From assembly GCA_016793265.1 (NCBI GenBank), contig JAEUHT010000022.1:1-40604 (forward strand): a stretch of 40,604 nt of DNA, given 5' to 3'. The DNA is from Planctomycetota bacterium. GTDB taxonomy: Bacteria; Planctomycetota; UBA1135; UBA2386. The notes beneath the pieces were generated by a model that was given only the letters and a program-made list of their open reading frames with translations, made no database searches and was not told where the DNA came from. Of the stretch, positions 302 through 32,433 are shown one piece after another. Every line of letters begins with the position of its first letter. Positions within the stretch are counted from its first letter, which is position 1. Made by a program: the position numbers and the translations under genes.

Positions 302-1561
302 TCACCTCCCGTCCGCCAGCCCCTTCGCCACCCGTTCCTGCTGCTCCCACTGCCCGTAGAGCTGCCCCTTCGAAGCGAGGTGACGCAGCCGCCGCCGCTG
401 CTCCGGCCCCAGCACCCCGGGGGCCGCCTTGCGCAGCGGCGTGCCCGGCAGCGGCATGAACGTGTGCCCGTGCACCTTGGCCCCGCGCGCGACCAGGCGG
501 TCCATCAGACCGAGCGTCGCTTCGACGTCGGTGGCCTCTTCGCCGGGCAGCCCGAACAGGAAGTCGACGTGCGGCACGAAGCCGTGCTCGATCGCGAGCG
601 CCGCGGCGCGTTCGATCGTGGCGCTGTCGTGGCCGCGCGCGCTGGCGGCGAGCACGCGGTCGCTGCCGGACTGACCGCCGAGGATCACCGTCTTGTTGCT
701 CACCCAACGCCGCAGCAGCTGCAGGCTCGCCGCATCGACGTGCTCGGGCCGCAGCTCGCTCGGGAACGTGCCGAACCACAGCCGCCGCGACGGCCCGATC
801 TCCTCGCGCACCCCGGCGAGCAGCGCTTCGACCGCGCCCAGGTCCGGCGCCGGCCCGTTGCTGCCGTAGCTCAGCGACGTCGGCGTCAGGAAGCGGAAGT
901 CGCGGAAGCCGCGGCCGACCAGGTAACGCACCCAATGCCGCACGTTGGCGACCGAACGGTGCCGGAACGCGGCGCCGGCGAAGTACGGCGTCTGGCAGAA
1001 GCGGCAGGCGTAGATGCAGCCGCGCGTGATCTCGATCGGACCGAAGCGGTCGTGCGCGGGCCCGAACGGCGGGAAGTCGTCGAGTACGATGCGTTCGGCG
1101 CGGCCGCGGCGACGCAGGTGCCCGTCGCTGCCGAGCGAGGCGATGCCCGGTACCGAGCGCAGATCACCGCCATCGTCGAGACAGCGCACGAGGTCGCGCA
1201 CGAGCCGTTCGCCTTCGCCGATCGCCACCAGGTCCCAGCCGGCGCGCAGCGTCGCTTCGGGTTCGGCGGACGCGTGCACGCCACCGGCGACGTGCACGAC
1301 GCGCGCATCCACGACCTGCTCGCGCACCTGGCGCAGCTCTGCCGTCATCAGCCCGAAGTCCGGCGAGTAGCACGACCAGCCGACCAGCACGCGGGCGGCG
1401 CCTCGGGCCAGCGCCTGCTGCACCGCCGTCACCACCGCGTCGACGCCGTTGGCGAACGTGATCGGCACCGCGGCCGTGCGCGCATCCGTCTCGAGCGCTC
1501 CGGTCAGCGTGTGCAACGCGAACTTGCCGGTGCGGCGGTAGGCCCAGACGACGTTCACCAT
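302..1561 (-). CDS. B12-binding/radical SAM domain protein
   Basis: A 419-residue protein. The radical SAM cluster motif C-x3-C-x2-C is at C182, C186 and C189 (TRGCIYACRFC). Residues 1-130 look like a Rossmann-type B12-binding domain, with VLVGWSCYSPD and VHVAGGVHAS strands, although the usual DxHxxG cobalt ligand was not found. The end of the radical SAM region has the family-typical FMPLPGTPLR. Layout and length fit the MJ_1487/TIGR04013 group of B12-binding radical SAM proteins, whose reaction is not established to my knowledge. The ATG at 1559-1561 was chosen because the cyclo-ligase gene ends at 1555, giving a 7-bp overlap and likely translational coupling. The open frame continues far upstream, but that part is antisense to other genes and has no family resemblance. 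Confidence 0.85.
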   Translation of the reverse strand: MVNVVWAYRRTGKFALHTLTGALETDARTAAVPITFANGVDAVVTAVQQALARGAARVLVGWSCYSPDFGLMTAELRQVREQVVDARVVHVAGGVHASAEPEATLRAGWDLVAIGEGERLVRDLVRCLDDGGDLRSVPGIASLGSDGHLRRRGRAERIVLDDFPPFGPAHDRFGPIEITRGCIYACRFCQTPYFAGAAFRHRSVANVRHWVRYLVGRGFRDFRFLTPTSLSYGSNGPAPDLGAVEALLAGVREEIGPSRRLWFGTFPSELRPEHVDAASLQLLRRWVSNKTVILGGQSGSDRVLAASARGHDSATIERAAALAIEHGFVPHVDFLFGLPGEEATDVEATLGLMDRLVARGAKVHGHTFMPLPGTPLRKAAPGVLGPEQRRRLRHLASKGQLYGQWEQQERVAKGLADGR

Positions 1562-2130
1562 CGCCGGCAGCCACGTTCGGTGACGACGGCGTCGAGGCGT
1601 TGGTCGTGCGCGTCGGCCGGCAGCTCGGCGACCTCCTGGCAGGAGAACGCGACGCCGACCACGAACGGCCGCGGCGACCGGGCGGCGAGGTAGCGGTCGT
1701 AGCAGCCCTTGCCCCAGCCGAGCCGCACGCCGCGGCGGTCGAAGCCGAGCAGCGGCGCCAGTACGAGCGTCGGCACGACCGGCGCGGCATCGGCGCGCGG
1801 TTCGAAGGTCGAGAAGCCGGCGGCGACCAGCTCGTCGGCGGGCGACCAGGCGCGGAACAGCATGTCGTCGCCGACGAACGCCGGCAGACACAACGAGGCG
1901 CCGGCCCCGGCGAGCGCCATCGCCAGCGGCCGCGGATCGACTTCGCTGCGCATCGGCCAGAACGCGGCGACCACGGCGCCGGCGGCGCGTTCGCGCAGCG
2001 CCTCGAGGCCGTGGCCGGCGAGCTGCAGCGACCATTCGGCGCGCAAGGTGGGCGACAGCGCGTCGCGGCGGGCGCGCAGGTGCGTGCGCCAGGTGCGCTT
2101 GTCGGTGCCGGGAGGGAGGTCGTGCGTCAC
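1555..2130 (-). CDS. 5-formyltetrahydrofolate cyclo-ligase
   Basis: A 191-residue protein of the 5-FCL family, which converts 5-formyl-THF to 5,10-methenyl-THF using ATP and returns stored or inhibitory folate to the one-carbon pool. The N-terminus shows the usual basic helix (KRTWRTHLRARRDAL). The diagnostic motif LGWGKGCYDRYLA lies near residues 138-150 and corresponds to the family's RLGxGGGYYDR nucleotide-binding loop; here one Gly is replaced by Lys. PLLGFDRRGVRLGWGKG precedes it as expected. Length (about 190 aa) is normal. It is upstream of the radical SAM gene and overlaps it by 7 bp. Its start lies 21 bp from the stop of the ABC-F gene, so the three may be co-transcribed. Confidence 0.9.
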   Translation of the reverse strand: MTHDLPPGTDKRTWRTHLRARRDALSPTLRAEWSLQLAGHGLEALRERAAGAVVAAFWPMRSEVDPRPLAMALAGAGASLCLPAFVGDDMLFRAWSPADELVAAGFSTFEPRADAAPVVPTLVLAPLLGFDRRGVRLGWGKGCYDRYLAARSPRPFVVGVAFSCQEVAELPADAHDQRLDAVVTERGCRRW

Positions 2131-2151
2131 GGTGGCAGCAGGGTAGCGTGG

Positions 2152-3798
2152 TCAGTCGGCGGTGATCTCGGTCAGCTTGCCGTGCTCGACGTGCCAGCGG
2201 CGCGTCAGCCGCACGGTGTCGAGCATGCGGCGGTCGTGCGTGACCAGCAGCAGCGTGCCGTCGAAGGCCTCGAGGGCCAGCTCGAGCTGTTCGATCGCCT
2301 CGAGGTCGAGGTGGTTGGTCGGTTCGTCGAGCACGAGCAGATTGACGCCGCGTGCCTGCAGCAGCGCCATCGCCGCTCGGGTGCGTTCGCCCGGCGACAA
2401 CGAAGCCGCTGAACGGTCGAGGAACGTGGTGCCGAGGCCGAACTTGGCCAGCAGCGTGCGCACGTCGGCCGTGGCCCAGGCCGGCAGGTTGCGGCCGAAC
2501 GCCGTCAGTGTCGGTTCGTCGGCGACGAAGGCCAGCCGCGCCTGGTCGATCTCGCCGATGACGACGCCGGTGCCGAGCGATGCGCTGCCGCTGGTCGCCG
2601 GCAGCTGGCCGAGCAGCAGCGCGAGCAGGGTGCTCTTGCCGCCGCCGTTGGGGCCGGTGATGGCGACGCGGTCCTTGACCATCAGCTTGGTGTCGATCGG
2701 CCCGAGCTCGAACGTGCCGCGCCGCGCCACCGCCTCGCGCAACGACGCCACCAGGTCGCCCGGCCGCCCCGCCGTCGCGATCGTGAACTGCAGCTTCCAC
2801 TCCTTGCGCGGCGCCTCGACGGCCTCGAGACGTTCGAGCATGCGTTCGCTCTGCCGGACCTTCGCCGCCTGCTGCTCGGTCGTCTCGGCGCGCACCGCGC
2901 GGCCCATCTTGTCGTTGTCCTTCGCCTTGCGCCGCGCGTTGCGCACGCCCTTCGCCAGCCACGCGCGCTGCCGCCGCGCCCGCGCTTCGAGCTCGCCGCG
3001 CCGCTGCGCATAGGCCTCGTAGGCCTCGGCCGCGTGGCGCCTCGTCACCGAACGCTCTTCGAGGTAAGCCGCGTAGCCGCCGCCGTAGGTGACGACGCGC
3101 AAGAGGCTGCGGTCGATCTCGACGACCTTGGTCACCGTGCGGGTGAGGAACTCGCGGTCGTGGCTGACCAGCACCGCCGGCGCCTGCAGCTCCTGCACGA
3201 ACTGCTCCAGCCGATCGAGGCCGTCGAGGTCGAGGTCGTTGGTCGGCTCGTCGAGCAGGTAGACTTCGTAGCGCGACAACAGCAGCGCGGCGAGGCCGGC
3301 GCGCGCCGCCTGCCCACCCGACAACGCCGTCGTCGGCAGCGCGAGGTCGACGTCGAGGCCGAGGTCGGCGAGCACCGCGGCGGTGCGTTCTTCGAAGTCG
3401 GCGCCGCCGAGCCCGAGCCAGTGCTCGAGCGCGTCGGCGTAACGATCGTCGGCGCCGGCCTGGCCTTCGGCCATGTCGTGCGCCGCCTGCTGCATCGCCG
3501 CGTCCGCCGCGGTCACACCCGTGCGGCGCATCAGGAACGCATGCACCGACTCGCCGATCAAGCGCTCGGGCTCCTGCGCCAGGAAGCCGACGCTCGCCGT
3601 CTTCGGCGCCAGGTGGATCGAGCCGGCGTCCGGCGTGCGCAAGCCGGCCAGCATGCGCAACAGGGTCGACTTGCCGGAGCCGTTGGGGCCGACGAGGCCG
3701 ACGACCTCACCCGGGGAGACGACGAGGTCGAGGCCGGAGAACAGCTGGCGGCTGCCGTAGCTGGCGGCGAGGCCGCGCGCGTGCAAGGTTGCAGTCAC
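2152..3798 (-). CDS. ABC-F family ATPase (duplicated ATP-binding cassette)
   Basis: A soluble 548-residue protein with two ABC domains and no membrane segments, the ABC-F arrangement (ribosome-associated factors such as EttA/Uup and antibiotic-protection proteins). Domain 1 has Walker A GPNGSGKST (residues 37-45), signature LSGGQAARAGL and Walker B LLDEPTNDLD. An Arg/Lys-rich helical linker follows (RRQRAWLAKGVRNARRKAKD). Domain 2 has GPNGGGKST, LSPGERTRAAM and VLDEPTNHLD. The GTG start at 3796-3798 sits just before the first strand (VTATLHARGLAASYG). An ATG at 3858 (MPATRRSVV) would add 20 unconserved residues, so the start is not settled. The gene is divergent from the ECF sigma gene, sharing a gap of about 110 bp. 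The subfamily cannot be assigned from motifs alone. Confidence 0.9.
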   Translation of the reverse strand: MTATLHARGLAASYGSRQLFSGLDLVVSPGEVVGLVGPNGSGKSTLLRMLAGLRTPDAGSIHLAPKTASVGFLAQEPERLIGESVHAFLMRRTGVTAADAAMQQAAHDMAEGQAGADDRYADALEHWLGLGGADFEERTAAVLADLGLDVDLALPTTALSGGQAARAGLAALLLSRYEVYLLDEPTNDLDLDGLDRLEQFVQELQAPAVLVSHDREFLTRTVTKVVEIDRSLLRVVTYGGGYAAYLEERSVTRRHAAEAYEAYAQRRGELEARARRQRAWLAKGVRNARRKAKDNDKMGRAVRAETTEQQAAKVRQSERMLERLEAVEAPRKEWKLQFTIATAGRPGDLVASLREAVARRGTFELGPIDTKLMVKDRVAITGPNGGGKSTLLALLLGQLPATSGSASLGTGVVIGEIDQARLAFVADEPTLTAFGRNLPAWATADVRTLLAKFGLGTTFLDRSAASLSPGERTRAAMALLQARGVNLLVLDEPTNHLDLEAIEQLELALEAFDGTLLLVTHDRRMLDTVRLTRRWHVEHGKLTEITAD

Positions 3799-4365: not shown

Positions 4366-4976
4366 AGAAGAACGAGGCGCCGATCCCCGTGCGCAGCGTG
4401 TGCATCCTGCCGCGCTGGATGATGCTGACGGCCGTCGGCGGGTGCGTCGCGCTGCTGCTGCTCTGCCTCGGCTTCGTCGTCTACGGCATCGGCTGGGTCG
4501 ACGACCAGGGGCGGCGCTGGGGCGCCATCGGCGGCGGGCTCGGCGGCGCCATCGGCTGCCTCGGCGGCCTCTTCGGCGCGCTCAACGACTGGCGCCGACG
4601 GCTGCCGGCGTCGTGGCTGTTCACCTACCTCCGGCACGACCACCCGCTGCCGTTCTACCGGCGCGTGTTCTGGCCCGCGGCCGTCGCCTGCGGCATCGGC
4701 CTCTGCCTGCTGCCATGGTGCGGACGCTTCGTCTGGCAGCCGTTCCTGCACGTCGGCGGCATGCTCGCCTTCATGAGCGGGAGCATGGAGCTGATCCGCC
4801 GCCACACCGCGAAGCAGGCGCGCGCCCTGTTCGCGCTCTACGCCGACGGCGCGCTCGCCGCCGACGATGCCGCGGCGATCGACGATGCCCGCCGGAAGGA
4901 TGCGGCGTTCGACGCCGAGGTGCAGGCGTTCCAGGCCCTCGGCGAACGGCTGCGGCAACTGACGGGCGAGCCATGA
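4362..4976 (+). CDS. four-helix membrane protein, candidate anti-sigma partner
   Basis: A 204-residue protein with about four hydrophobic segments: near residues 19-43, a Gly-rich segment 52-69, 104-121 and 127-142. A charged, probably cytoplasmic C-terminal tail follows. That tail (ALYADGALAADDAAAIDDAR ... DAAFDAEVQAFQAL) resembles the 'L-x-DGELS-x-EE' helix-rich signature of anti-sigma domains, although there is no zinc-binding HxxxCxxC motif. It starts inside the sigma factor's stop (ATGA overlap). Together these suggest a non-canonical, zinc-less anti-sigma factor with the sigma-binding part at the C-terminus. This is inference; I do not recognise the family. A strong hairpin follows the stop within 3 bp. 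Confidence 0.75.
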   Translation: MKKNEAPIPVRSVCILPRWMMLTAVGGCVALLLLCLGFVVYGIGWVDDQGRRWGAIGGGLGGAIGCLGGLFGALNDWRRRLPASWLFTYLRHDHPLPFYRRVFWPAAVACGIGLCLLPWCGRFVWQPFLHVGGMLAFMSGSMELIRRHTAKQARALFALYADGALAADDAAAIDDARRKDAAFDAEVQAFQALGERLRQLTGEP

Positions 4977-5079: not shown

Positions 5080-5760
5080 ATGCCCCTCGCGCGCCGCCGG
5101 CTGCTGTTCCTGACGATCGGTGCCACCCTGCTGCTCGCCGCCTGGTTCGTGCTGCCCAGATTGCGCATGGCGAAGGTCGACTTCGTGCCGCACGGCGACC
5201 CGCAGCGGGCCGCCGTCGCCGGCCGCGTGCTGGATGGCGAAGGCAAGCCGGTCGGGGGCGTGGCGGTGAAGTGGTTCGCGCAGCAAGGCGACGCGAGCCT
5301 GCTCGGTTTCCGCACCTTCCGCGGTGGCGACCTGCAGGCGATCACCGGCGCGGATGGCGCCTTCCGCTTCGATTCGGTGCCGCTGGCCGAAGGGTATGCC
5401 GCGCTCGACCCGGCATCGGGCTACGAAGGGGGGAGTGGCCACGTGCTGCCGCAGGCCGGGCACGCTGCCGAAGGCCTGCGCATCGCCGCGGAGCCGATCG
5501 GCGAGGACCGCTGGCTGCGCGGGCGGTTGCTGCATCGCGACGGCACGCCGGCCGCGGGCGTGGTGGTGCAGGTGAAGGTCGAACGGCTGCTGCGTTCGTG
5601 GCAGGGCATCGCCAGGACCGACGCCGAGGGCCGGTTCGCCGCGATGGGGCCGTGGGCCGGCGTGGCGGTCGATCTGTTGCTGCTGCCGGACCAAGGCGAA
5701 GCGAAGCCGCTCGGCACGCATCGCTTCGGCGAGCCCGTGCAGGTCACCCTGCCCGACTGA
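5080..5760 (+). CDS. membrane-anchored protein with two CarbopepD_reg-like domains
   Basis: A 226-residue protein with an N-terminal signal anchor (basic LARRR, then hydrophobic residues about 8-25). The rest is probably outside the membrane. Two carboxypeptidase-regulatory-like beta domains are visible from their first strands and turn: AVAGRVLDGEGKPVGGVAV (about 45-63) and LRGRLLHRDGTPAAGVVV (about 146-163). Each is followed by the typical 'T-D-A-x-G-x-F' turn (GADGAFRFDSVP; RTDAEGRFAAM). These are transthyretin-like folds that usually act as binding or spacer modules, so no enzymatic role is suggested. It faces the FG-GAP gene, with which it is convergent. The same domain type recurs in the proteins at 22217 and 29491. 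Confidence 0.8.
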   Translation: MPLARRRLLFLTIGATLLLAAWFVLPRLRMAKVDFVPHGDPQRAAVAGRVLDGEGKPVGGVAVKWFAQQGDASLLGFRTFRGGDLQAITGADGAFRFDSVPLAEGYAALDPASGYEGGSGHVLPQAGHAAEGLRIAAEPIGEDRWLRGRLLHRDGTPAAGVVVQVKVERLLRSWQGIARTDAEGRFAAMGPWAGVAVDLLLLPDQGEAKPLGTHRFGEPVQVTLPD

Positions 5761-5801
5761 TCGCAGCCGGGCGCACAAGCCCTCTCCACGTCCCCGAGGT
5801 C

Positions 5802-5825
5802 CGTGATCACATTCAGTGGATCACG
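5802..5825. terminator. inverted repeat between convergent genes
   Basis: CGTGATC (5802-5808) and GATCACG (5819-5825) form a 7-bp stem with a 10-base spacer that contains the stop codon of the minus-strand FG-GAP gene. Because the two flanking genes converge here, the structure could end transcription from both sides. There is no T-run, so confidence is moderate. Confidence 0.4.
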
Positions 5826-8227
5826 CCGCGCACCACGTTGCTCAGGTGGAACTGGAACCAGTCCCACAGCAGGACCTGACCGCGCAGCGGTTGCCCGACG
5901 AGCGCCGGCGAGGCGGGGATCGCAAGGTCGACCTCGCAGCCGCCGTCGATCACATACATGGTGTAGGCCGCGCAGGCGGTTGGATCGACGTAGACGGTGC
6001 CGACTCCAGGCCAGGGCGCGGCGGCCTCCTCATGACTGACCATCAACATGCCCAACATCACCGGCGTGACCACATCACGCCGGTCGAACCGCAGCGTCCA
6101 GCTGCCGAGCATCGGCGGTGCCGGTGACCACAGCAGATTGTCGCGGTTCCACAGGATCCGGCTGCCGGAGAACAGGTCGAGGCGGCCATCGTGGTCGAGG
6201 TCGACCAGCGCGCCGGCTGGGCCGACGTCGGGCACCAGGGTGAACGTGGTGCCCGAGTTCATCAGCAGGTGGCTCTGGGTGCCGATCACGATCAGCAGAT
6301 CGTCGGCGCCGTTGTGGTCGATGTCCTGGACGATGCCGTTGGTCACGGCGCCGAGGCCGGCGGGCAGCCACGCGTTGGTGTCGTTGGAAAACCCGGTCCC
6401 CGTGTTCTTGATCATGCGACTGGCGCCGGCGGCAGCACCGAAGAACAGGTCCATGTCGCCGTCACCATCACAGTCGATCGCCGCGATGCAGGTCGCCGAG
6501 GCCGGCACGTAGGCAGCAAACGAGCTCATCACCGTCCAGGTACCGCCGTCGTTCCGCAGCCAGCGACTCTCGTGGATGATGTCGTCGTCACCATCCCCAT
6601 CGACGTCGGCCAGCAGGATCTCCTCATGCAACGGCGGAGTGCTCGCCGTCGCCGACACCACCGGTGACACGTCGACCCAGCCCGCGCCACTGCGGGTGAA
6701 GATCATCGGGCCGGTCCGCAGCGTCGAGCTGAACACCAACTCGTCCCCCGGCTGCCCGTCGAGGTCTCCAGCCCGCACCCGGTATGCCGGGACAGGCAGC
6801 ACCGGCGCCGTGGCCGGCACCGGCACGCCGTTGACGAAGTCGAAGTACGACAGCCACGGCACGGTGATGAGTCCGAGCACGCCACCTGGCGCCGGTGTGA
6901 CGAAGGCCGCATCACTTCCGGTCAACGAGCCGAACCGCCACGTGCGCTCGACCTCGCCGGGCAGTGGCGCGTCGGAACCGAGCCTCAGCCCATAGCTGCC
7001 GATGACCAGGACGTCGTCGATCGGCGGCGAGGCGCTGCGTTGCCGCGCTTCGATCCGCCTTGGCGTCAGGGGAGACGACAACAGGCCGACCGAAGCGACC
7101 CAGGGATTCTCGGTGTAGAGCGGACCCGTCGCGAGGTTGCGGACGAAGCCGATCTTGTTGCCCGCGATGATGTCGAGGCGACCATTGCCGTCGAGGTCGA
7201 TCAGCAGCGGGTTGCCCTGCAGATTGCCACCCGGAAGCGGCTGGAACACGAACTGCATCGGGCCGGTCTGCAGGTATATGCCGGTGCGGCTCACCCAATC
7301 GGCACGTCCGTCGCCGTCCCAATCTCCTGCTTCCGCAGTGAACAGGTCCTGGATCTCTGGCGTCGTGAGGTCGACCGGCGTCACCGTCCAAGAGCCCGTG
7401 CCTCCGGTCACCAGCCAGGCGCCGAAACCGCCGGCCGCTGACATGCCGATGACGTGGATATCGAGCGAACCATCGCCATCGAAGTCCGCGACCTGCACCT
7501 GCGAGATGAACCCGAACCCTCCCGTCGACGGCAGTGTCTCTTCGGTGAAGGCCCCGCCCCCCTGATTGCGCCAGACGCGCAACGTCATCGGACCCAAGCC
7601 ACCGCCGTTCTTGACGACGTCCTGGTCGCCGTCGTGGTCGAGGTCCACGACGAAGAAGCCATGCTGTTGGCGGTCGAGCCCCGCAAGGACAGTGGAGGTC
7701 ACATCGGTGAACGCACCGGCCCCGTCGTTGGCGAACAGCAGCAGCGAACCGTTGTTGGCCAACCAGTCGAGGTCGCCGTCGCCGTCATAGTCGATGAACG
7801 CTCCCGGCAAGGGGGCAAGGGCGTAGACATAGATCGACGGATCGACCGCGAACGCACCACCACCTACGTTGCGCACCAAGGAAGTGCCGGTGCAGACGTC
7901 GGGCAGTCCATCGCCGTCGTAGTCGCCCATCGCCTGCGACACCACCCATGTGGCGGTGGCCGTGGTGAGCCCGGACGCCATGAGCGTGAACCGCCCACGG
8001 CCATCATTGCGATAGTAGTTCGTGCTGTTCGCGCCCGAACCACCGGCGAGCACGTCGGGATGGCCATCCCCGTCGACGTCGATCACCATGCGGTTGCTAC
8101 CGCCATAAGCCGAGCCCGGCGACGGTGGACTACCGGGGTACATGCTGCGCTCGTGCTCGACGAAGTACTGGGCGCACAACCCGGACGCGAAGGCGGCGAA
8201 CGTGAAGACTCTCGGTGCAAAACGCAT
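5813..8227 (-). CDS. secreted FG-GAP/VCBS repeat protein
   Basis: An 804-residue exported protein. The signal peptide is MRFAPRVFTFAAFASGLCAQ, with likely cleavage after residue 20. At least twelve Asp-rich calcium-binding loops of the FG-GAP/VCBS type follow, for example DVDGDGHPDVLAG, DYDGDGLPDVCTG, DFDGDGSLDIHVI, DVDGDGDDDIIHE, DCDGDGDMDLFFG and DLDHDGRLDLFSG, so the body is probably a beta-propeller. The last ~100 residues form a separate domain ending near IPASPALVGQPLRGQVLLWD, a pattern I associate with C-terminal modules of secreted planctomycete proteins; that association is from memory. The start is supported by GAGGG six bases upstream of the ATG. Likely extracellular or surface-bound; the ligand is unknown. 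Confidence 0.9.
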   Translation of the reverse strand: MRFAPRVFTFAAFASGLCAQYFVEHERSMYPGSPPSPGSAYGGSNRMVIDVDGDGHPDVLAGGSGANSTNYYRNDGRGRFTLMASGLTTATATWVVSQAMGDYDGDGLPDVCTGTSLVRNVGGGAFAVDPSIYVYALAPLPGAFIDYDGDGDLDWLANNGSLLLFANDGAGAFTDVTSTVLAGLDRQQHGFFVVDLDHDGDQDVVKNGGGLGPMTLRVWRNQGGGAFTEETLPSTGGFGFISQVQVADFDGDGSLDIHVIGMSAAGGFGAWLVTGGTGSWTVTPVDLTTPEIQDLFTAEAGDWDGDGRADWVSRTGIYLQTGPMQFVFQPLPGGNLQGNPLLIDLDGNGRLDIIAGNKIGFVRNLATGPLYTENPWVASVGLLSSPLTPRRIEARQRSASPPIDDVLVIGSYGLRLGSDAPLPGEVERTWRFGSLTGSDAAFVTPAPGGVLGLITVPWLSYFDFVNGVPVPATAPVLPVPAYRVRAGDLDGQPGDELVFSSTLRTGPMIFTRSGAGWVDVSPVVSATASTPPLHEEILLADVDGDGDDDIIHESRWLRNDGGTWTVMSSFAAYVPASATCIAAIDCDGDGDMDLFFGAAAGASRMIKNTGTGFSNDTNAWLPAGLGAVTNGIVQDIDHNGADDLLIVIGTQSHLLMNSGTTFTLVPDVGPAGALVDLDHDGRLDLFSGSRILWNRDNLLWSPAPPMLGSWTLRFDRRDVVTPVMLGMLMVSHEEAAAPWPGVGTVYVDPTACAAYTMYVIDGGCEVDLAIPASPALVGQPLRGQVLLWDWFQFHLSNVVRGVIH

Positions 8228-21392: not shown

Positions 21393-21731
21393 TCAGCGGC
21401 CCTTGGCGGCCTTGCCGCCGGTCTTGCCCTGATGGTGCCGCAGCAGCGGTCCGGTCAGCGCGATGAGCCCGCCGACGATGACGAGCACCCACGCCGCACG
21501 GTCACTCTCCCTGAGCGCCTCCGGCGGCACTTCCTTCATCGCCAGCGCCATCTTCACGTCGCCGCTCTGGAAGGCGAACGTGGCGCGGCCGACCGCGCGC
21601 CACAAGAAGAAGGTGTCGTCGACCTGGCTCTGCATGTGGCGCGCCACCGCCACCTGACCGTGCAGCACGAGGCCGCCGCCGAGCAGCACGCCACCGAGGA
21701 AGGTGAAGAACCAGCGCGCGACGCCGAGCAT
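21393..21731 (-). CDS. 112-aa membrane protein, intact copy (unknown)
   Basis: Two predicted membrane helices: WFFTFLGGVLLGGGLVLHG (8-26) and AWVLVIVGGLIALTGPL (about 80-96). Between them is a probably periplasmic loop with VDDTFFLWRAVGRATFAFQS. The basic C-terminus (HHQGKTGGKAAKGR) should be cytoplasmic. I do not recognise the family. Its first 91 bp, together with upstream sequence, are duplicated at 24317-24407, so before the insertion it directly followed the VIT/VWA gene with a 49-bp gap. In its present position it has been cut off from that gene and probably from its original promoter. Confidence 0.75.
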   Translation of the reverse strand: MLGVARWFFTFLGGVLLGGGLVLHGQVAVARHMQSQVDDTFFLWRAVGRATFAFQSGDVKMALAMKEVPPEALRESDRAAWVLVIVGGLIALTGPLLRHHQGKTGGKAAKGR

Positions 21732-21852
21732 GCCCGCATCGTCGCGCGCCGGGCGCGGCGATGCGAGCGGCGGCGGCGGTTCACTTTTTCGCCGGTTCGG
21801 CCTCGGCCTTCGGCGCCGGCGTGATGCGCACGATGCGGGCGCCGTCGCGGAA
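21641..21852. repeat. 212-bp direct repeat, left copy
   Basis: Matches 24317-24528 over 212 bp without gaps; the only difference seen is G at 21773 versus A at 24449. On the minus strand it holds, in order, the last 24 codons (stop included) of the VIT/VWA gene, 49 bp of spacer and the first 91 bp of the 112-aa gene. In this copy the 112-aa gene continues intact and the VIT/VWA end is an orphan fragment. Confidence 0.97.
21781..21852 (-). pseudogene. orphan 3' end of the VIT/VWA gene
   Basis: These 23 codons plus stop are identical to the end of the intact gene at 24457 (encoding ARIVRITPAPKAEAEPAKK). The fragment lies inside the left repeat and has no upstream gene body, since the foreign segment begins at 21853. 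It is a duplication remnant. Confidence 0.9.
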
Positions 21853-21858
21853 TGCCCA

Positions 21859-22200
21859 TCACCCTGCGACGTCCGCCCTGACTCTGCTTGTCCCAACAAC
21901 GCTGGCGAGGACGCCACCGATACTCGCCACGATCAATCGCCAGGTCCTGTCCAGCCTCAACAGGCCCCCGCCACATCCGCACGGCCCTGGGTGGACCAGG
22001 GCGACCGCGCAGCCGACCAGGAAGAACACGACCAACGCGAGCGCCGCCCCCCTCCAGTACCTCGTCAGCAGCGCACTCCCGAGTCCGATCTCCATCGTCG
22101 CAACCGAGTAGTAGACCCAGGAGGCCATTGCCCCCGGCTCTGGAGAGAGGACCTTGGCGCACCCAAAGAACAAGACTAGCAACACCAGTGCACTCTTCAT
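21859..22200 (-). CDS. MauE/DoxX-like four-helix membrane protein
   Basis: A 113-residue protein with about four membrane helices. It contains FFGCAKVLSP at the end of helix 1 and HPGPCGCGGGLLRLD between helices 3 and 4. The CGCGG sequence corresponds to the 'CGCFG' motif of MauE-type members of the DoxX-like superfamily, which are thought to move electrons or thiol redox equivalents across the membrane. The family call rests on topology, length and this motif. The start is the ATG at 22198-22200; a GTG two codons upstream is possible. It is the last gene of the inserted operon, 16 bp after the CarbopepD-like gene, and may keep the cysteine-rich product or another partner correctly oxidised. 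Confidence 0.65.
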   Translation of the reverse strand: MKSALVLLVLFFGCAKVLSPEPGAMASWVYYSVATMEIGLGSALLTRYWRGAALALVVFFLVGCAVALVHPGPCGCGGGLLRLDRTWRLIVASIGGVLASVVGTSRVRADVAG

Positions 22201-22216
22201 GAACACTAACTCCCAC

Positions 22217-23749
22217 CTATTCCACCAAGATCGCGCCACCAGCTCGGACCCTCCAATCACTCCAGGCATACCGCCTCGACAGCACCTCACGCCCGGCAAC
22301 CGTCACCCGGATCGTCAAGTCCTCCTCAGGCAATGTCATCCAACCAAGGCTCGCAAGGGGTTCGACAATCTTCTTGTCGCCACACGCAATGGCAGCAACG
22401 TGAGCATCCGGGTCCCTCCGCCCAATAGGGATATCCAGCTTCACCAAGTGGTATCCAGGAGCCACCGTGCCGACAGTCTCCGCGTGCGCTCCATCCGCGA
22501 GAACGACCTCCGATGGCTCGAACGCAATGTCCTCGACATACCCATCGCCAAACGCACTGTACGTCCCCGCCATCAGCTTCTTCCTTTCACCGGCCATGGC
22601 AACTGCTGGTGGCCGCTTGCTTCCTCCCATCCTATTGACCAGGATTCGCACGCCGTCAATCTGCCGACCCTCCTCAACTACCGTGACGAGAAGGTCTCCG
22701 GGAATGCCGACGAACTCCCTCGCGATCAAGCGCGGTCGCTCGGCCACAAGACGATCTAGTGGCTGCAGGCGACCTGCTACCACCATCCGATGGCCAGACT
22801 TCGTGCCCGTATATGTCAACTCTACCGTCTCTTGCTCCACTCCAGGAGGAAGGAACCCGCCAATGCAGTAGTCGGCCGTTGGGAAGTAGGGCATGGCCTG
22901 GTTCAGCGTGTGTGCAGACACAACCAGACTATTGGGTCGCAGCAGGCAGTCCATCGGCAGCTCTTCCAGATCCATAGCCACGCCCCAACCCCGCACGAGA
23001 TTCACTGTCACCTCACTCACCTCAGGCACGTCGAAGGATCTCGTAGCCTCCCGGCTCAAGTATCCGGACCGTGGCGCCCGAACCCAGTAGGCCCCATCTG
23101 GAAGCCCGGAGAACTCCGTCTTGCCAGACTCTCCTGTCACGCCCCACCTTATCAGCCCTCCGAACTCCACCGGCAGCACTTGGTCTCGCTTCTCCGGAAC
23201 ATCGCTGCGCCCCTTGCCGCTCGCTATCACGACATCAACTCCGGGGGCAGGCCGCCCATCAACGGTCACCTGAACGGTGACGCCCGCCCCCCGAGACAGA
23301 ACCACCTCATGGTCCAATCCATCGGTAGGAATGCACAGAAACTCGGGACCGAAGCCCGCGTGAGTGACTACAACGGCATTTCCGCACAAGGCAGCCTGGA
23401 CCACAATCCTACCAGCATTGTCGGAGCGTCCCAGAACCTCCCCGTGATTCGCTTGATCTGCACGTTGCATGGTCGCACCAGTCAAGACGGTGCCGTCGTC
23501 CGAACGCACAACCAGTACGAACTCAGGGGTCGCGCGTCGGAGCGGCGCGCCGACATCAGCCTTCTCCTGGAGGCGCTCCACCACTCCCGATTGGGCAGGC
23601 GCAGCGTGGATACTCTTGGTAGTCGGGGTGGCCGGTTGTGCTCCACCAACCCGACTACACTCCGTCCATGCCAAAGCAATCACACCCACGGCAAGCAATG
23701 CCACAGTGACCCGCCCAATCGCGCTCGTGCGTAGCGTGCGAATGCCCAT
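22217..23749 (-). CDS. membrane-anchored CarbopepD_reg-like protein of the inserted segment
   Basis: A 510-residue protein with a signal anchor (GRVTVALLAVGVIALAW, about residues 12-28) and a large extracytoplasmic part. Carboxypeptidase-regulatory-like domains are suggested by LVVRSDDGTVLTGATMQRAD, the strand VTVQVTVDGRPAPGVDVVIA and the turn GESGKTEFSGLPDGAYWVRA. The second half (from about residue 250) is less repetitive and unrecognised. The ATG at 23747-23749 lies 1 bp after the stop of the cysteine-rich gene, so the two are probably coupled. Codon use is clearly less G/C-biased than in neighbours, including the other CarbopepD-like proteins at 5080 and 29491, which supports separate ancestry. 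Confidence 0.75.
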   Translation of the reverse strand: MGIRTLRTSAIGRVTVALLAVGVIALAWTECSRVGGAQPATPTTKSIHAAPAQSGVVERLQEKADVGAPLRRATPEFVLVVRSDDGTVLTGATMQRADQANHGEVLGRSDNAGRIVVQAALCGNAVVVTHAGFGPEFLCIPTDGLDHEVVLSRGAGVTVQVTVDGRPAPGVDVVIASGKGRSDVPEKRDQVLPVEFGGLIRWGVTGESGKTEFSGLPDGAYWVRAPRSGYLSREATRSFDVPEVSEVTVNLVRGWGVAMDLEELPMDCLLRPNSLVVSAHTLNQAMPYFPTADYCIGGFLPPGVEQETVELTYTGTKSGHRMVVAGRLQPLDRLVAERPRLIAREFVGIPGDLLVTVVEEGRQIDGVRILVNRMGGSKRPPAVAMAGERKKLMAGTYSAFGDGYVEDIAFEPSEVVLADGAHAETVGTVAPGYHLVKLDIPIGRRDPDAHVAAIACGDKKIVEPLASLGWMTLPEEDLTIRVTVAGREVLSRRYAWSDWRVRAGGAILVE

Positions 23750-23750
23750 G

Positions 23751-24152
23751 TCAAAGGCACCCGCAGACATCCTGCCAGAATTGGGTGACAGCCGAGGGTC
23801 GACAAGTCTTCCCCCCTGCACAGGCCGCCCTGTCGCACTTACCCTCAATGATCTCAACTGGCTCGAAGTACCAGAATACGTAGCCGTTGCAGATGCAGAT
23901 GTCGTTTGTCCAGTGGTCTCCGCAATAGCACATCATCACGAACGGATCCGTTGGCCCGCCACTACCGGCGATGGGTCCCTGTGGGCTACTGGGGCAACCA
24001 GTATCGCACACCGTGGACACACACCTGTAGGCCTTACCCCCCGGCCAGGACGCGTCGAGCCGCCACTGGGTCGTACACTTGCATGAATCGGGCAGAGTGA
24101 GCAATGCAGCGCCGAGACAGAGAGAGAACAACAAGACCAGGAGGGCTCGCAT
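23751..24152 (-). CDS. secreted cysteine-rich protein (14 Cys)
   Basis: A 133-residue protein starting at ATG 24150-24152 with a signal peptide (RALLVLLFSLCLGAALLTLP). The mature ~110 residues contain 14 cysteines, several in CxC or closely spaced pairs: SCKC, CYC, CIC, CGC. There are also aromatic segments such as YVFWYFEP. I do not recognise the fold; such density implies several disulfides or metal binding outside the cytoplasm. It is the first gene of the inserted operon. Its frame stays open upstream into the truncated copy of the 112-aa gene, so a 218-aa fusion is formally possible, but the good signal peptide favours the start given here. Confidence 0.7.
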   Translation of the reverse strand: MRALLVLLFSLCLGAALLTLPDSCKCTTQWRLDASWPGGKAYRCVSTVCDTGCPSSPQGPIAGSGGPTDPFVMMCYCGDHWTNDICICNGYVFWYFEPVEIIEGKCDRAACAGGKTCRPSAVTQFWQDVCGCL

Positions 24153-24193
24153 GTGCTTCGAGTGCGGAGAATGGGGGAACCCGAACCACATGG

Positions 24194-24237
24194 CCCCCCC
24201 CCCGGACAAGAATGCAAGGTGCTTCCTATTCCTTGCA
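24194..24237 (-). promoter_or_regulatory. leader of the inserted operon: hairpin and C10 run
   Basis: Upstream of the cysteine-rich gene lie TGCAAGG (24213-24219) and CCTTGCA (24231-24237), a 7-bp inverted repeat with an 11-base spacer, and a run of ten C's at 24194-24203 (G's in the transcript sense). TTGCAA with GCATTC about 17 bases later on the minus strand could be a weak promoter. Both readings are tentative. Confidence 0.3.
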
Positions 24238-24316
24238 AGTTCCCGGGACCGCCAGGACCGCCTGCCAAAGCGCGTCGTTCGCCAACCGCCAAGGTGTCGA
24301 ACATGGCGACTCGGTA

Positions 24317-24407
24317 GCGCCACCGCCACCTGACCGTGCAGCACGAGGCCGCCGCCGAGCAGCACGCCACCGAGGAAGGTGAAGAACCAGCGCGCGACGC
24401 CGAGCAT
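24317..24407 (-). pseudogene. truncated 5' end of the 112-aa membrane-protein gene
   Basis: The first 30 codons (MLGVARWFFTF to HGQVAVA) match the intact gene at 21731 and then run into foreign sequence. The start codon, first membrane helix and natural upstream context directly after the VIT/VWA gene are kept. If still translated, the frame has no stop until the end of the cysteine-rich gene at 23751. Confidence 0.85.
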
Positions 24408-24528
24408 GCCCGCATCGTCGCGCGCCGGGCGCGGCGATGCGAGCGGCGACGGCGGTTCACTTTTTCGCCGGTTCGGCCTCGGCCTTCGGCGCCGGCGTGA
24501 TGCGCACGATGCGGGCGCCGTCGCGGAA
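24317..24528. repeat. 212-bp direct repeat, right copy
   Basis: The partner of 21641-21852, with one mismatch (A at 24449 instead of G). In this copy the VIT/VWA gene end is attached to its gene, while the 112-aa gene start is truncated where the inserted segment begins at 24316. The single difference falls in the spacer between the two genes. Confidence 0.97.
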
Positions 24529-26727
24529 CACGATGCGCTCGCCGAGCGCGAGCACCTCGCTCAGCTTCTTGTCCTTGCGCTGCAGCTCGAACCAGGCGTC
24601 CGAGAACGCCTCGATGCTCACCGCCAACGTCGCCCAATCGGCCGGCAGCCCCTGTTCGACGAGGTCGTCGCCGACCGCGACGAAGACCCGGCCGCCGGCG
24701 CGGCGCACGAGGGCGTTGTCGCGGGCCTTGCCGGCGTTCTTGGCTTCTTCGTCCTTGGCTTCACCGCCGGCGACCTCGAGGCTCTCCCGGATCGCCTCGG
24801 CGCCGGTGCGCGTCTTGCCGAGGTCCTGCAGCCGGGACGGGCTGGCCGACGACGGCGCCGATGGCCCGGCCGGGCCACCGGTGGCCGGCCCAGAGGGTCC
24901 GGCCCCACCACCACGCCCCCCACCCGCCGGCGGCACCGCCCCGTCACCGCGTTGCCGCCGCGCCAGCCGGTCCTGTTCTTCGAGGATCAACTGCGACGTG
25001 TACGGCGTGACGATGCCGTACTGCGTGGCCAGCCGCCGCACCTCGTCGATGAGCTCCTGCTTCGGCCCGCTGCGGCGGATCGCGTCGAGCATGGCCGCGA
25101 CGTGCTGCCGCGCCCACAGCGTCTTGACGAACGCGTATTGCGCCATCGCCGCCGGGAACTCGACCGTGAACACGTACTCGCGCTCGACGCCGTTCTGCTT
25201 GCCGCGCACGCGCACGGTCTGCTTGCCGGCACCGCGGTAGCGGCCGACGATCTGGATCTGCTCGCCGCAGAACAGGTCGGGCAGGTGGCCCGGGTGCACG
25301 TCGAAGGCGTCGAGGGTGTCGCACCGCAGTTCGACGTCGGTCAACGCTGGTTCGGCGAGCTTCTGGCACAGGGCGTCGACCTTGACCTCGATCTTCTCGT
25401 TCTGCCGCACAAAATCGCGCGCCCCGTGGTGCTGGATCACGAGGTCGTCGAGCAAGCGCACGTCGATGTCGTCGCCGACGCCGAACGCGAAAACGCGCAT
25501 CGCCTGCTTGTCGACCTGCTTGGTCAGTTCGAGGATGCGGCCCGGATCGGTGACGCCGACGGTCGGCATGCCATCGGTGACGAAGACGATCTGCGGCAGC
25601 AACGCGGGCCCGTCGTTGGTCGGCAGCGGCACTTCGAGCGCCTGCTTCAGCGCATCCGCGATGTTGGTGCCACCCATCGCCTGCACGGCGTCGATGCGGG
25701 CCAGCGCCGTGGCCACGTTCTCGGCCGACGCCAGCACCGGCGAGGCGAAGAACGTCTGCACGCCGGACGCGAACGTCACCACCTGGAACAGGTCCTGCTC
25801 GCGCAGGCGGCCGACGAACGCGCGCAGCGCCGCCTTGGCCTGCACCAGCTTCACGCCCTGCATCGAGCCCGAGGTGTCGAGCACGAATTGCACGCAGCGG
25901 CGCGGCGGCTCCTTGCCGGCCAACGAACGCGGCGGCGACACCAGCATGGTGAAGTAGCCCGCCTCGTCGCCGCCGCGGTAGGGCAGCAGGTGCAGGCCGA
26001 ACTCCTGCTCGCTGAGGCCATAGACGACGCGCAGGTCGTCGAGCTGGTCGATGCGGCCTTCGAGCGAGACCGTCGCCTCGTGCTCACCGAGGCGGCGGAT
26101 CTCGGCGTTCGCCTGCGGCGTCAGCACCGATCGGATCGCCGTCTGCGACTTGATGCGCACGCTGAGGCCGATCGGCCCGACCGCGGCGTCACCACGCTGC
26201 GCCGCGCGCAGCGGCCAGGCCCACTCGTAGAGCCCGCCGGTCGGCGCCAGCACCTGCCGCAGCCGCACCGTCACGCCGACCTCACCGTTGGCAGGGATCG
26301 GGTAGATGCGCGCCCGCAGCAGCCCTTCGCCCGCGTATTCGAGCAGCCCCGGATCACGCCGCTGCCGCACGATCGCCTCATAGATGCCGCGCGCCTGGTT
26401 GGCGTCCAGCACCTCCCCTTGCACCTCCTTGCCGCCCACCGTCATCGTGAACCCGTCGGCGAAGGCACCGGCCGGCAGCGGCAGGAACCAGGTGCCTTCG
26501 GCGTCGCGTGAACCGTCGTTGCGGAACACCTGGTCGATCGTCGTGGTGGCGATGCCATCGACGATCTCGGCGTTGACCGCGGTGCGCGTGATCGAGACCC
26601 CGCCGGTGCGCGGCGCCAGGGCACCGGGCGGTCGCGGGGCCTCGCCGGGCGACGGGCCGATCAGCAGGCCCTGGGCGAGCAACGGCGCAGAGAAGACGAA
26701 CGGCAACAGACGCAGCAGCGGTTTCAT
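24457..26727 (-). CDS. VIT and VWA domain protein, exported
   Basis: A 756-residue protein with a signal peptide (KPLLRLLPFVFSAPLLAQG). The VIT (vault/inter-alpha-trypsin) domain covers about residues 45-170: VNAEIVDGIATTTIDQVFRN and YEAIVRQRRDPGLLEYAGEG are its hallmark blocks. The VWA domain has a full MIDAS: DTSGS at 284-288, MGGTNIADAL and FVTDGMPTVGV. A C-terminal helical part (QYGIVTPYTSQLILEEQ) and a Gly/Pro-rich linker follow. Three ATGs occur in a row; GAGG lies 6 bases before the third (26725-26727), so that is taken as the start. It is probably a periplasmic or surface protein-interaction component. Its former downstream partner is now 2.7 kb away because of the insertion. Confidence 0.92.
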   Translation of the reverse strand: MKPLLRLLPFVFSAPLLAQGLLIGPSPGEAPRPPGALAPRTGGVSITRTAVNAEIVDGIATTTIDQVFRNDGSRDAEGTWFLPLPAGAFADGFTMTVGGKEVQGEVLDANQARGIYEAIVRQRRDPGLLEYAGEGLLRARIYPIPANGEVGVTVRLRQVLAPTGGLYEWAWPLRAAQRGDAAVGPIGLSVRIKSQTAIRSVLTPQANAEIRRLGEHEATVSLEGRIDQLDDLRVVYGLSEQEFGLHLLPYRGGDEAGYFTMLVSPPRSLAGKEPPRRCVQFVLDTSGSMQGVKLVQAKAALRAFVGRLREQDLFQVVTFASGVQTFFASPVLASAENVATALARIDAVQAMGGTNIADALKQALEVPLPTNDGPALLPQIVFVTDGMPTVGVTDPGRILELTKQVDKQAMRVFAFGVGDDIDVRLLDDLVIQHHGARDFVRQNEKIEVKVDALCQKLAEPALTDVELRCDTLDAFDVHPGHLPDLFCGEQIQIVGRYRGAGKQTVRVRGKQNGVEREYVFTVEFPAAMAQYAFVKTLWARQHVAAMLDAIRRSGPKQELIDEVRRLATQYGIVTPYTSQLILEEQDRLARRQRGDGAVPPAGGGRGGGAGPSGPATGGPAGPSAPSSASPSRLQDLGKTRTGAEAIRESLEVAGGEAKDEEAKNAGKARDNALVRRAGGRVFVAVGDDLVEQGLPADWATLAVSIEAFSDAWFELQRKDKKLSEVLALGERIVFRDGARIVRITPAPKAEAEPAKK

Positions 26728-26733
26728 CATCAT

Positions 26734-29490: not shown

Positions 29491-32433
29491 TCACTGGGGC
29501 GCCAGCTGCAGGTCGACCGTGACGGTCTCGCCGGCCTTCACCTCGACCTCGCGCCACGCCGAGAACCTCGACTCCCCGTCGCCGACCGACTGCGCGCGCA
29601 CTTCGTGTCTGCCGGCTTCGAGGCCGCCGATGCGGTAGCTGCCGCCCATCGCCATCTCGCTGTTCTCGTCGGTGGTGCCCAGCTTGCGGTGCGCCACCAG
29701 CGCCATGCCGACCGCCTTGCCGTCGCTGCCGGTGACCTTGCCGCGCACGGTGCCGGCGCCGGTGAGCTCGACGCGGCCGGCGTCACTGACCTGACGTTCG
29801 ACGACCACGATCTGCCGCAGCGATGCCTTGGCGTAGCGGCGGTGGCTGATCTCGATCGCATAGGTGCCGACCGGCACGTTCTCGATCACCGCTTGGCCGG
29901 CGGCGTCGGTGCGCACGCGTTGGGCGCCGAGCGTCATCGTCGTCGCCTCGGGGCCGCCGCTGCCGTCGAACGTGGTCATGGCGACCATCATCACGCGGCG
30001 CTCGGCCGGGGCCGCGTCGCCTTCGACAGAGGGCTCGATCTCGATCTCGGCGCCGGCCACCGGCTCGCCGCTGTCCTTGGCGACGACGAGGACGCGCAGC
30101 GAACCGACGTGCAGCTGCAGGTCCTGGCGCAGCTCGCGCACGTTCGGCGGCACCACGATCGCCTGCTTGGCCTTGACCACCTGGTCGCCGGTGCCGAATC
30201 GCAGCACGTAGTTGCCTGCCTCGACACCTTCGATCACGTAACCACCGTCGGCCGCGGTGAGGACGCGCTGGGCGCCGCCGAAGCCCGGCATGCCGGGCAG
30301 GTCGAGGCCCGGTTCGTGCTCACCTTCGAGCGCGACGCTCGCCGCCGCCAGCGGGCCGTCGGCGCCGGTGACGATGCCGCGGATCGTGGCCAGCAGCGGC
30401 TGCCGCAGCTGCACGGCGACGGTGCGCCCGGCCACCACGGTGACCGGCTGCGCCGAGCTGGCGAGCGTCGGCGAGTCGCCGGCGAACGAGATCATCATGT
30501 CGCCCATCGCTGCCGCCTTGGCCGGCCGCGCCAGCGCGGCGGTGTATTGGCCGGCGATGAGGCCGCCGAGCACGGCCCTGCCCCGCTCGTCGCAGCGCCG
30601 GTTGGTCGGTTCCGCCGCGGCGGTGCCATCGGCCGGCGTCAGCCAGACCTCAGCGCCGGGCACCGGTTGGCCTTCGTTGTCGGCGACGGTGATCTCGACC
30701 TTGCCGGGCAACCGCAGCCGCAGCGTGGCATCGGCCGTGCCCGCGCGCGGCAGCACGATCGGCACCGCCGCCGCCTTCGCCCATTCGGCGTGGGTGGCGA
30801 CGACCTCGAAGTCCCCGGCCGGCAGGCCGCGCACGAGCGCGATGCCGTCCTGGTCGGTCTTGCCGCTGCCGACGTCGGCATCCGCGCCGTGGATCGCGAC
30901 CCCACCATCGCCGTCCTCGACGGCGACGCGCCGGGCACGGAACATGCCGCCCGGGGCTTCGTCCCCACTCTGCGGCCGCCGCACCAACACGCTGGCGCCG
31001 GCGACCGGCTTGCCGTCGTCGTCGAGCACCGTCACCTTGGCGGTGGCGCCGAGATCGGCCACCAGCCGCACGCCCTTGATGGTCTGGCCCGGCAGCACAC
31101 GCACACCATCCTGCTGGGCGGGGCGGTGGCCATCGCCGCGCGCGGCGACGACGACGTCACCGGGCTTGACGTTCTCGACGCGGAAGCTGCCATCGGCTGC
31201 CGTCGTCGCGCGGGCGCGGCCGTCGCCGAGATCGCCGAAGTCCATCTCGTCGAAGGTGGCACCGCCGAGGCCCTTGCGCGGCGCAACCGCGTTGACACGG
31301 CTGCCGGCGATCGCCGCGCCGCCGGCGTCGACGAGCACGCCTTCGACCGCGCCGAGGCGATCGACCCGCAGCAGCAAGTTGCCGGTGCCGACCTGGACCT
31401 CCGGCAACGTCAGCGAAGCGTGCCCTGGCCCGAAGACGCGGATCGTCGCCGCTTCCTCGTTGAGGCCGGCCAGCGTGAAGAAGCCGTGCGCATCGGTCGT
31501 GGTCGCCTCGTCGGCGGTGAAGCGCTCGACGTCGACGCCGCCGCGCGACTCCTTGCGCTTGCTCGCCACCTTCATGCCGGCGACGCCGACGCCGCGGTCG
31601 TCGACGACCTGGCCGGCGATCGTATTGCCCGGCTTGACCACCAGCACGAGGTCGGTGCGCTGCTGCTCGGGCGCCAGCACGAAGTCCTCGACGGTCGGCG
31701 CGAACCGCCCCGACAGGGTACGCAGGGTCCACTTGCCCGGCCGCAACTTGCCGATCGAGAACGTGCCGTCGGCCGCGGTCTTGCTCTCGCTGGTGCCACC
31801 GATCAGGCCGACCGCCGCCGCCACCTTGACGTCGGCCACGGGCTGGCCGTTCTGGTCTTGCACGACGCCGGCGAGCACGCTGGCGCGCAGCACCGTCAGC
31901 GCGCCGAGGTCCTGGTCGCCCTGGCCGCCGCGGAAGTTCGTCACCGGCGCCTCGAACACGAACTCCGCCGCCGCCAGGTCGAGCGCGCCGCTGCGATCGC
32001 GCGCGAACTCGAAGCGGAAGCTGCCATCGGCGGCGCTGGTCACCGTCGCCGGTTGCTCGCGGCCGGCCGCCGGACGCACGGGCAGGTCGACGAAGTCGAC
32101 ACCGTCGAGCGTGGGCCAGGTCCTGGCCTCGAGCAGGATGCCGGCGCGCGCGGCGCCGTCGGGGCCGACCAGGCGTCCACGCACGACGTAGCGTGCGTCC
32201 GCCGGCGGCAGCACCTCGGGCCGCGCTTCGACGCGTTCGCCGACGTTGGCGGCGGCATTGGCAGGAACGGCGGCCGCCCCCCCCGCGCGCTCGGCGGCGG
32301 CGGCCTGTTGGTCGGCGGCGACGGCGACGGGCGCCGGTCCCTGCGGGGCAGCACCCGGATCCCGATCGAAGAAGAACCAGGCGGCAGCCGCCAGCAGGGC
32401 GACGCCAGCGACGAGTATGGCTTTGACGTTCAT
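29491..32433 (-). CDS. large membrane-anchored protein with many CarbopepD_reg-like domains
   Basis: A 980-residue protein. An N-terminal signal anchor (AILVAGVALLAAAAWFFF) is followed by a low-complexity Ala/Pro linker (about 25-75). The body is a chain of roughly eight to ten transthyretin-like modules, recognised by repeats of 'V-x-G-x-V-x-D-x-x-G-x-P-V-A-G-A' and 'T-D-x-x-G-x-F-x-(V/I)': for example LAGVVQDQNGQPVADVKVAA, KPVAGASVLVRRPQ, NEGQPVPGAEVWLTP, IRGIVTGADGPLAAASVAL and VRGKVTGSDGKAVGMALVA. It probably projects from the membrane as an elongated adhesive or structural rod. The ATG at 32431-32433 has no clear Shine-Dalgarno. It is divergent from the M24 peptidase. Confidence 0.88.
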   Translation of the reverse strand: MNVKAILVAGVALLAAAAWFFFDRDPGAAPQGPAPVAVAADQQAAAAERAGGAAAVPANAAANVGERVEARPEVLPPADARYVVRGRLVGPDGAARAGILLEARTWPTLDGVDFVDLPVRPAAGREQPATVTSAADGSFRFEFARDRSGALDLAAAEFVFEAPVTNFRGGQGDQDLGALTVLRASVLAGVVQDQNGQPVADVKVAAAVGLIGGTSESKTAADGTFSIGKLRPGKWTLRTLSGRFAPTVEDFVLAPEQQRTDLVLVVKPGNTIAGQVVDDRGVGVAGMKVASKRKESRGGVDVERFTADEATTTDAHGFFTLAGLNEEAATIRVFGPGHASLTLPEVQVGTGNLLLRVDRLGAVEGVLVDAGGAAIAGSRVNAVAPRKGLGGATFDEMDFGDLGDGRARATTAADGSFRVENVKPGDVVVAARGDGHRPAQQDGVRVLPGQTIKGVRLVADLGATAKVTVLDDDGKPVAGASVLVRRPQSGDEAPGGMFRARRVAVEDGDGGVAIHGADADVGSGKTDQDGIALVRGLPAGDFEVVATHAEWAKAAAVPIVLPRAGTADATLRLRLPGKVEITVADNEGQPVPGAEVWLTPADGTAAAEPTNRRCDERGRAVLGGLIAGQYTAALARPAKAAAMGDMMISFAGDSPTLASSAQPVTVVAGRTVAVQLRQPLLATIRGIVTGADGPLAAASVALEGEHEPGLDLPGMPGFGGAQRVLTAADGGYVIEGVEAGNYVLRFGTGDQVVKAKQAIVVPPNVRELRQDLQLHVGSLRVLVVAKDSGEPVAGAEIEIEPSVEGDAAPAERRVMMVAMTTFDGSGGPEATTMTLGAQRVRTDAAGQAVIENVPVGTYAIEISHRRYAKASLRQIVVVERQVSDAGRVELTGAGTVRGKVTGSDGKAVGMALVAHRKLGTTDENSEMAMGGSYRIGGLEAGRHEVRAQSVGDGESRFSAWREVEVKAGETVTVDLQLAPQ

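Follow-up and report, generated by a model that had tools for sequence, protein, structure and literature searches.

A recombinase-free three-gene insert between two copies of its target: a probable insertion with long target duplication in a Planctomycetota genome

How accessory and defence genes which carry no recombinase of their own enter bacterial chromosomes is the wider question posed by a locus on contig JAEUHT010000022.1 of the Planctomycetota assembly GCA_016793265.1 (UBA1135; UBA2386), whose 40,604 nucleotides were analysed as a whole and are referred to below as the window. Here, a segment with three genes lies between two direct copies of a 212-bp sequence, at the boundary between the gene of a 112-aa protein and that of a VIT/VWA protein. 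The reading preferred in the present analysis, to which a probability of about 0.62 is given, is that the segment is a horizontally acquired three-gene operon and that 212 bp of the target were duplicated in the same event. With a long target duplication, an insert can land at a gene boundary without breaking the gene on either side, and the scar left behind can be both dated and searched for; in a lineage where such insertions recur and single-copy empty sites are available, the underlying mechanism, be it dependent on Ku/LigD, on competence or on an unknown gene, becomes testable by comparative genomics. The window is an entire contig (C251) of a draft genome (G000; 316 contigs, 81% complete), and the genomes compared with it are drafts as well. 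The parts of the locus are the following.

21393..21731, minus strand: host gene of 112 aa on the left flank, intact, with its first 91 nt inside the left repeat; orthologous position in relatives
21641..21852, no strand: left copy of the duplicated 212-bp target, joined without a break to the 112-aa gene, which it completes; includes an orphan piece of the VIT/VWA gene (72 nt of its 3' end)
21853..24316, minus strand: inserted segment, 2464 bp, G+C content (GC) 0.61, missing from the empty sites of relatives
24317..24528, no strand: right copy of the duplicated 212-bp target, joined without a break to the VIT/VWA gene, which it completes; includes an orphan piece of the 112-aa gene (91 nt of its start)
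24457..26733, minus strand: host gene of a 758-aa VIT/VWA protein on the right flank, intact, with its last 72 nt inside the right repeat

The two copies are identical in 211 of 212 bases (99.5%), the sole mismatch being a G at 21773 against an A at 24449; their starts are 2676 bp apart, leaving 2464 bp in between. Each copy comprises 91 nt from the start of the 112-aa gene, a spacer of 49 nt and 72 nt from the end of the VIT/VWA gene, and since each completes one of the neighbouring genes, both of these are intact. A repeat of this length and identity is far above chance, as only 6 direct-repeat pairs (at least 50 bp, at least 85% identity, 0.3-8 kb apart) were counted in the 1.16 Mb of DNA of this lineage that served for comparison. 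The composition of the insert sets it apart from its surroundings, its GC being 0.61 against 0.75 in the repeat and 0.71 in the flanks, while GC at third codon positions is 0.66-0.81 in its genes and 0.92-0.96 in the neighbouring ones. No recombinase, transposase or integrase was found in the insert by Pfam and PADLOC scans of its three genes, nor did these scans give any restriction-modification similarity; no second (source) copy of the insert was found elsewhere in the genome, and neither the insert nor its main protein had a plasmid or phage match.

The direction of the event is given by the relatives. A search covered 60 relatives, and nine of them, all of the same family (G030, G027, G018, G001, G003, G009, G023, G017 and G026; about 66-76% nucleotide identity), were aligned across the site; in these the 112-aa gene lies directly beside the VIT/VWA gene, the repeat region is present once and the insert is missing; indeed, a construct in which the window locus is joined to a single copy aligns over the site in 9/9 of them, the alignment being split elsewhere in G017 and G026. 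Because the site of the relatives is single-copy and without insert, the insertion is the derived state, and because their empty site holds one copy, the 212-bp repeat is target sequence duplicated at insertion. Judged by the 99.5% identity of the copies, the insertion is recent. The original prediction, made from the letters of the window, had described a lower-GC insert between 211/212-matching repeats of host sequence, devoid of a recombinase and recently acquired, and all of these statements have stood, coordinates and match being exact; it had also proposed to look for an empty site, which at least nine relatives display, and had named as refuting an arrangement shared by all relatives with diverged repeats, which no relative carries, and an artefact of assembly, which is unlikely for the reasons given below. 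In one further genome (G031; locus L023, G031:C282, about 1330-3429) another gene of 699 aa, with a host-like GC of about 0.70, lies between the same two genes; as a duplication this insertion was discounted, its two sides sharing only a weak 100-bp similarity of 64%, and the spot between the 112-aa and VIT/VWA genes may be a favoured landing site.

The anatomy of the locus matches what has been called insertion with long target duplication, described in 2000 for restriction-modification genes of Helicobacter pylori (Nobusato, Uchiyama, Ohashi & Kobayashi, Gene 259:99-108, cited from PMC1643837; also PMC3154945). According to these sources, a block is present in one genome and missing in a related one, is flanked by long direct repeats derived from a target that is single-copy when empty, and fits no known transposition mechanism (PMC1643837, PMC3154945). 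Likewise, the window insert is missing, and its target single-copy, in nine relatives; it is flanked by 212-bp direct repeats derived from the target; and it has neither a transposase nor a site-specific recombinase. What is new are host and cargo: the lineage is unrelated to H. pylori, and the cargo is a secreted Cys-rich/MauE-like cassette or, at other loci considered below, an AAA_14/DUF4143 gene or ShosTA, and not restriction-modification, which in H. pylori is a frequent association rather than part of the definition. No report of a long target duplication in Planctomycetota turned up in the searches made. As in transposition with target-site duplication, the target is doubled on both sides of the insert; however, insertion sequences duplicate 1-14 bp (PMC11708052), whereas the duplications described here are variable and measure 59-230 bp, with no transposase and no common ends, so that a classical transposon does not describe them. 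A further precedent is found in Arabidopsis, a plant and not a bacterium, where transposed genes other than transposons lie between direct repeats; these consist of genic host sequence that the empty orthologous site also has, a pattern explained by formation of a circle and its reinsertion (PMC2869330).

Genomic islands driven by an integrase are also flanked by direct repeats, with restoration of the end of the target gene. Unlike these, the window insert has no integrase, and the repeats are particular to each site instead of representing a fixed att sequence. The cargo of the window is a compact minus-strand operon, coding for a Cys-rich secreted protein, a CnaB/Ig-like anchored protein and a MauE-like membrane protein, with a single base between genes 1 and 2 and 6 bp between the last stop codon and the left repeat.

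24153..24316, minus strand: 164-bp cassette leader, from the start of gene 1 to the right repeat by coordinates; presumed promoter region
23751..24152, minus strand: cassette gene 1, coding for a secreted Cys-rich protein of 133 aa; seven of the cysteines are invariant in eight diverged relatives
22217..23749, minus strand: cassette gene 2, coding for a protein of 510 aa with a membrane helix at the N-terminus and CnaB/Ig-like beta domains after it; weakly similar to CarboxypepD_reg
21859..22200, minus strand: cassette gene 3, 113-aa MauE-like membrane protein with a CGCxG-type motif

Profiles of the three proteins detect diverged relatives across the order, and at many cassette loci two or all three of the genes are adjacent, often in lower-GC DNA and at unrelated genomic sites. 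Among 52 cassette loci examined, direct repeats on both sides were found in 6.

Window locus: repeat of 212 bp, 99.5% identity
L087: repeat of 230 bp, 95%
L081 (G009:C58): repeat of 107 bp, 97%
L074: repeat of 59 bp, 97%
L080 (G004:C119): repeat of 138 bp, 97%; ambiguous
L056: repeat of about 290 bp, 72%; decayed

Near-identical repeats (59-230 bp, at least 95% identity) thus flank 5 of the 43 testable cassettes, the window included and the ambiguous L080 among them, while 0.32% of equal-sized blocks in the 1.16 Mb of comparison DNA are flanked by such repeats (counted at 50 bp or more and 85% identity or more); leaving the window aside, the probability of finding at least 4 in 42 is about 1.1e-5, a figure to be taken as a guide and not as exact. 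As a cassette is an insertion, unlike most genes, what this enrichment shows is that the scar goes with insertions, not that the cassette produces it. The repeated sequence differs from site to site and is local at each; in the window, L074 and L081 it takes in the 3' terminus of a host gene. For L081 an empty site is present in G001 and G017, with 58-80 bp between the flanking genes, and, less tight, in G015; for L087 the same-genus genome G095 has an empty site of 745 bp, against 783 expected for one copy. No relative with both flanking genes adjacent was found for L056, hence no proven empty site, and L074 has no clean one either, its relatives holding variable material there or lacking the left gene.

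The signature is not tied to the cassette cargo. In 848 kb of the window's own genome one further clear case came to light (L115, G000:C165, 2040-2107 / 3429-3497), in which 69 bp from the end of an aminotransferase-like gene are duplicated on the two sides of an AAA_14/DUF4143 gene, the PADLOC candidate PDC-S01; a single-copy empty site is present in G016, G007 and G009, where the joined construct can be aligned over its full length and the repeat matches a single time, in register. In G009, a ShosTA(-like) operon is enclosed by a 192-bp direct duplication (L123, G009:C100, 167-358 / 2254-2445; 97%) that derives from the 3' end of the neighbouring gene. That related cassettes and unrelated defence-type genes bear the same scar suggests a shared, little-studied route of acquisition.

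As to how the duplication arises, host repair would produce it, without any enzyme supplied by the cassette. Most likely, incoming DNA would be joined at a break whose two strands had been cut far apart, the fill-in of the overhangs leaving one copy on each side; alternatively, a replication end might switch template, copy the foreign DNA and resume upstream, with the same product. Since the duplication spans a gene end and a short spacer, the neighbours are preserved, and surviving insertions are expected to show this arrangement. No common sequence at the insert ends was evident by eye, five cassette loci having been compared. Ku is encoded in the genome of the window and in 17/34 genomes of the family; as a necessary factor it was not retained, this distribution being suggestive at most.

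Some observations weigh against an insertion that duplicates its own target through host repair. A flanking repeat is not detectable in 38 of the 43 testable cassettes, and because most cassettes show none, other routes, or (fast) decay, must be allowed for; the comparison DNA that sets the background comes mainly from G000 and a few relatives; and Ku was not found in G004, which carries a cassette with the possibly ambiguous 138-bp repeat, or in its genus-mates, so that end joining by Ku is not established.

Of the other explanations, the one that survives best is that already envisaged in the original prediction, a single crossover of Campbell type in which a circle with the cassette and 212 bp of the locus recombined with the chromosome and thereby doubled these 212 bp. 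Such a crossover yields exactly the product seen, near-identical copies are the expected trace of homologous recombination within a species, and circles have been proposed for the flanking repeats of the transposed Arabidopsis genes (PMC2869330); moreover, excision at an existing insertion would generate such a circle, which may well spread the insertion among strains. As the origin of the locus it is nonetheless improbable: a fragment of the host would have to be loaded onto the circle beforehand, at several unrelated targets and with unrelated cargo, and no plasmid or phage match was found. It is because the anatomy recurs at unrelated targets, with varied lengths and cargo, that a duplication made during insertion is preferred to a lucky circle; host repair is tentatively favoured over a circle crossover. 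The companion claim, that the cassette could be cleanly excised, would hold under host repair as well, as the two copies could later recombine by homology and so give back the empty site.

Rather doubtful is the action in trans of a recombinase not encoded in the insert, which would mobilise the cassettes by long staggered cuts as part of a dedicated mobility system so far not recognised. Cassettes of one family do occupy many sites and are strongly enriched for duplications, and in G006 (L059, G006:C19, 3119-3613) a fragment of phage-integrase type lies between two family cassettes on one 8-kb contig; on the other hand, the insert ends have no evident common sequence, the repeats vary in sequence and length, and unrelated cargo bears the same signature. 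That the lineage possesses dedicated, unrecognised machinery inserting small operons (defence genes, secreted Cys-rich cassettes) and duplicating tens to hundreds of target bases, in a manner unlike known transposition, is to be regarded with similar doubt.

A tandem duplication of the 212 bp followed by capture of the cassette between the copies, which the original prediction had also allowed for, would give the same end product, but two independent rare events would be required at each of several sites, and no bare tandem duplication was present at the window locus among the relatives examined; this order of events is accordingly very unlikely. Least probable of all is an artefact of assembly, which might be suspected in a single contig of a draft metagenome-type genome, and because contigs of G092 and G004 end inside equivalent repeats: the copies are not identical (1 base apart here, up to 5% at the remaining near-identical loci and 28% in L056), both junctions are continuous in one contig, the anatomy recurs in independent genomes whose copies have diverged, and empty sites exist at four loci.

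Returning to the proteins of the cassette, their similarity to known families is limited. The model of the 510-aa protein, of moderate confidence, shows a membrane helix followed by several beta domains, and when compared with the PDB it is best matched by CnaB/Ig-like domains of pilins, with low template-modelling scores (TM-scores) because the arrangement of the domains is not fixed; against CarboxypepD_reg (PF13620) the protein scores 25.2 bits, below the Pfam gathering cut-off of 32.3. Gene 3 reaches 20.2 bits against MauE (PF07291), below the cut-off of 27, and for this reason is named MauE-like only; the MauE-like proteins have a common C-G-C-x-G motif, invariant except for its first G. 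The predicted structure of the Cys-rich protein was of low confidence and was not used; its seven invariant cysteines emerge from eight proteins compared. No described system with this three-protein composition was located within a limited search. The strong divergence between sites and the scattered positions suggest a role of the cassette in conflict or competition, and from the composition of the family it may be guessed that the cassette consists of a redox-matured secreted protein with a surface-anchored partner.

Some features of the other loci deserve mention. In L080 the repeat is present three times (2619-2734, 4738-4875 and 7675-7812), one copy being at a contig end, and this may be the record of successive insertions or an unrelated repeat. 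Several relatives (L142-L145) have varying material of 1.8-3.2 kb at the spot of L074, which lies beside pyruvate dehydrogenase genes and is a possible insertion hot spot. In L081 (G009:C58) a second extra segment (5284-6380) lies to the right of the duplicated target, and relatives are without both segments. Two contigs of G092 (L146 and L147, at the start of G092:C45 and the end of C15) stop inside sequence that matches the L087 repeat, with 84 identical bases in common, as if an insert bearing repeats had broken the assembly there. Four candidates were discounted as insertions: in L153, L168 and L051 the repeats either belong to tandem paralogues or have a length that would fit a gene duplication, and in L091 the right repeat forms the 3' end of a gene that is complete, while the left one is at the contig start, possibly in a tandem gene. 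Within the window but outside the insert, several stretches of a minus-strand region with a 980-aa open reading frame (29491-32433) match the profile of gene 2, as beta-domain repeats.

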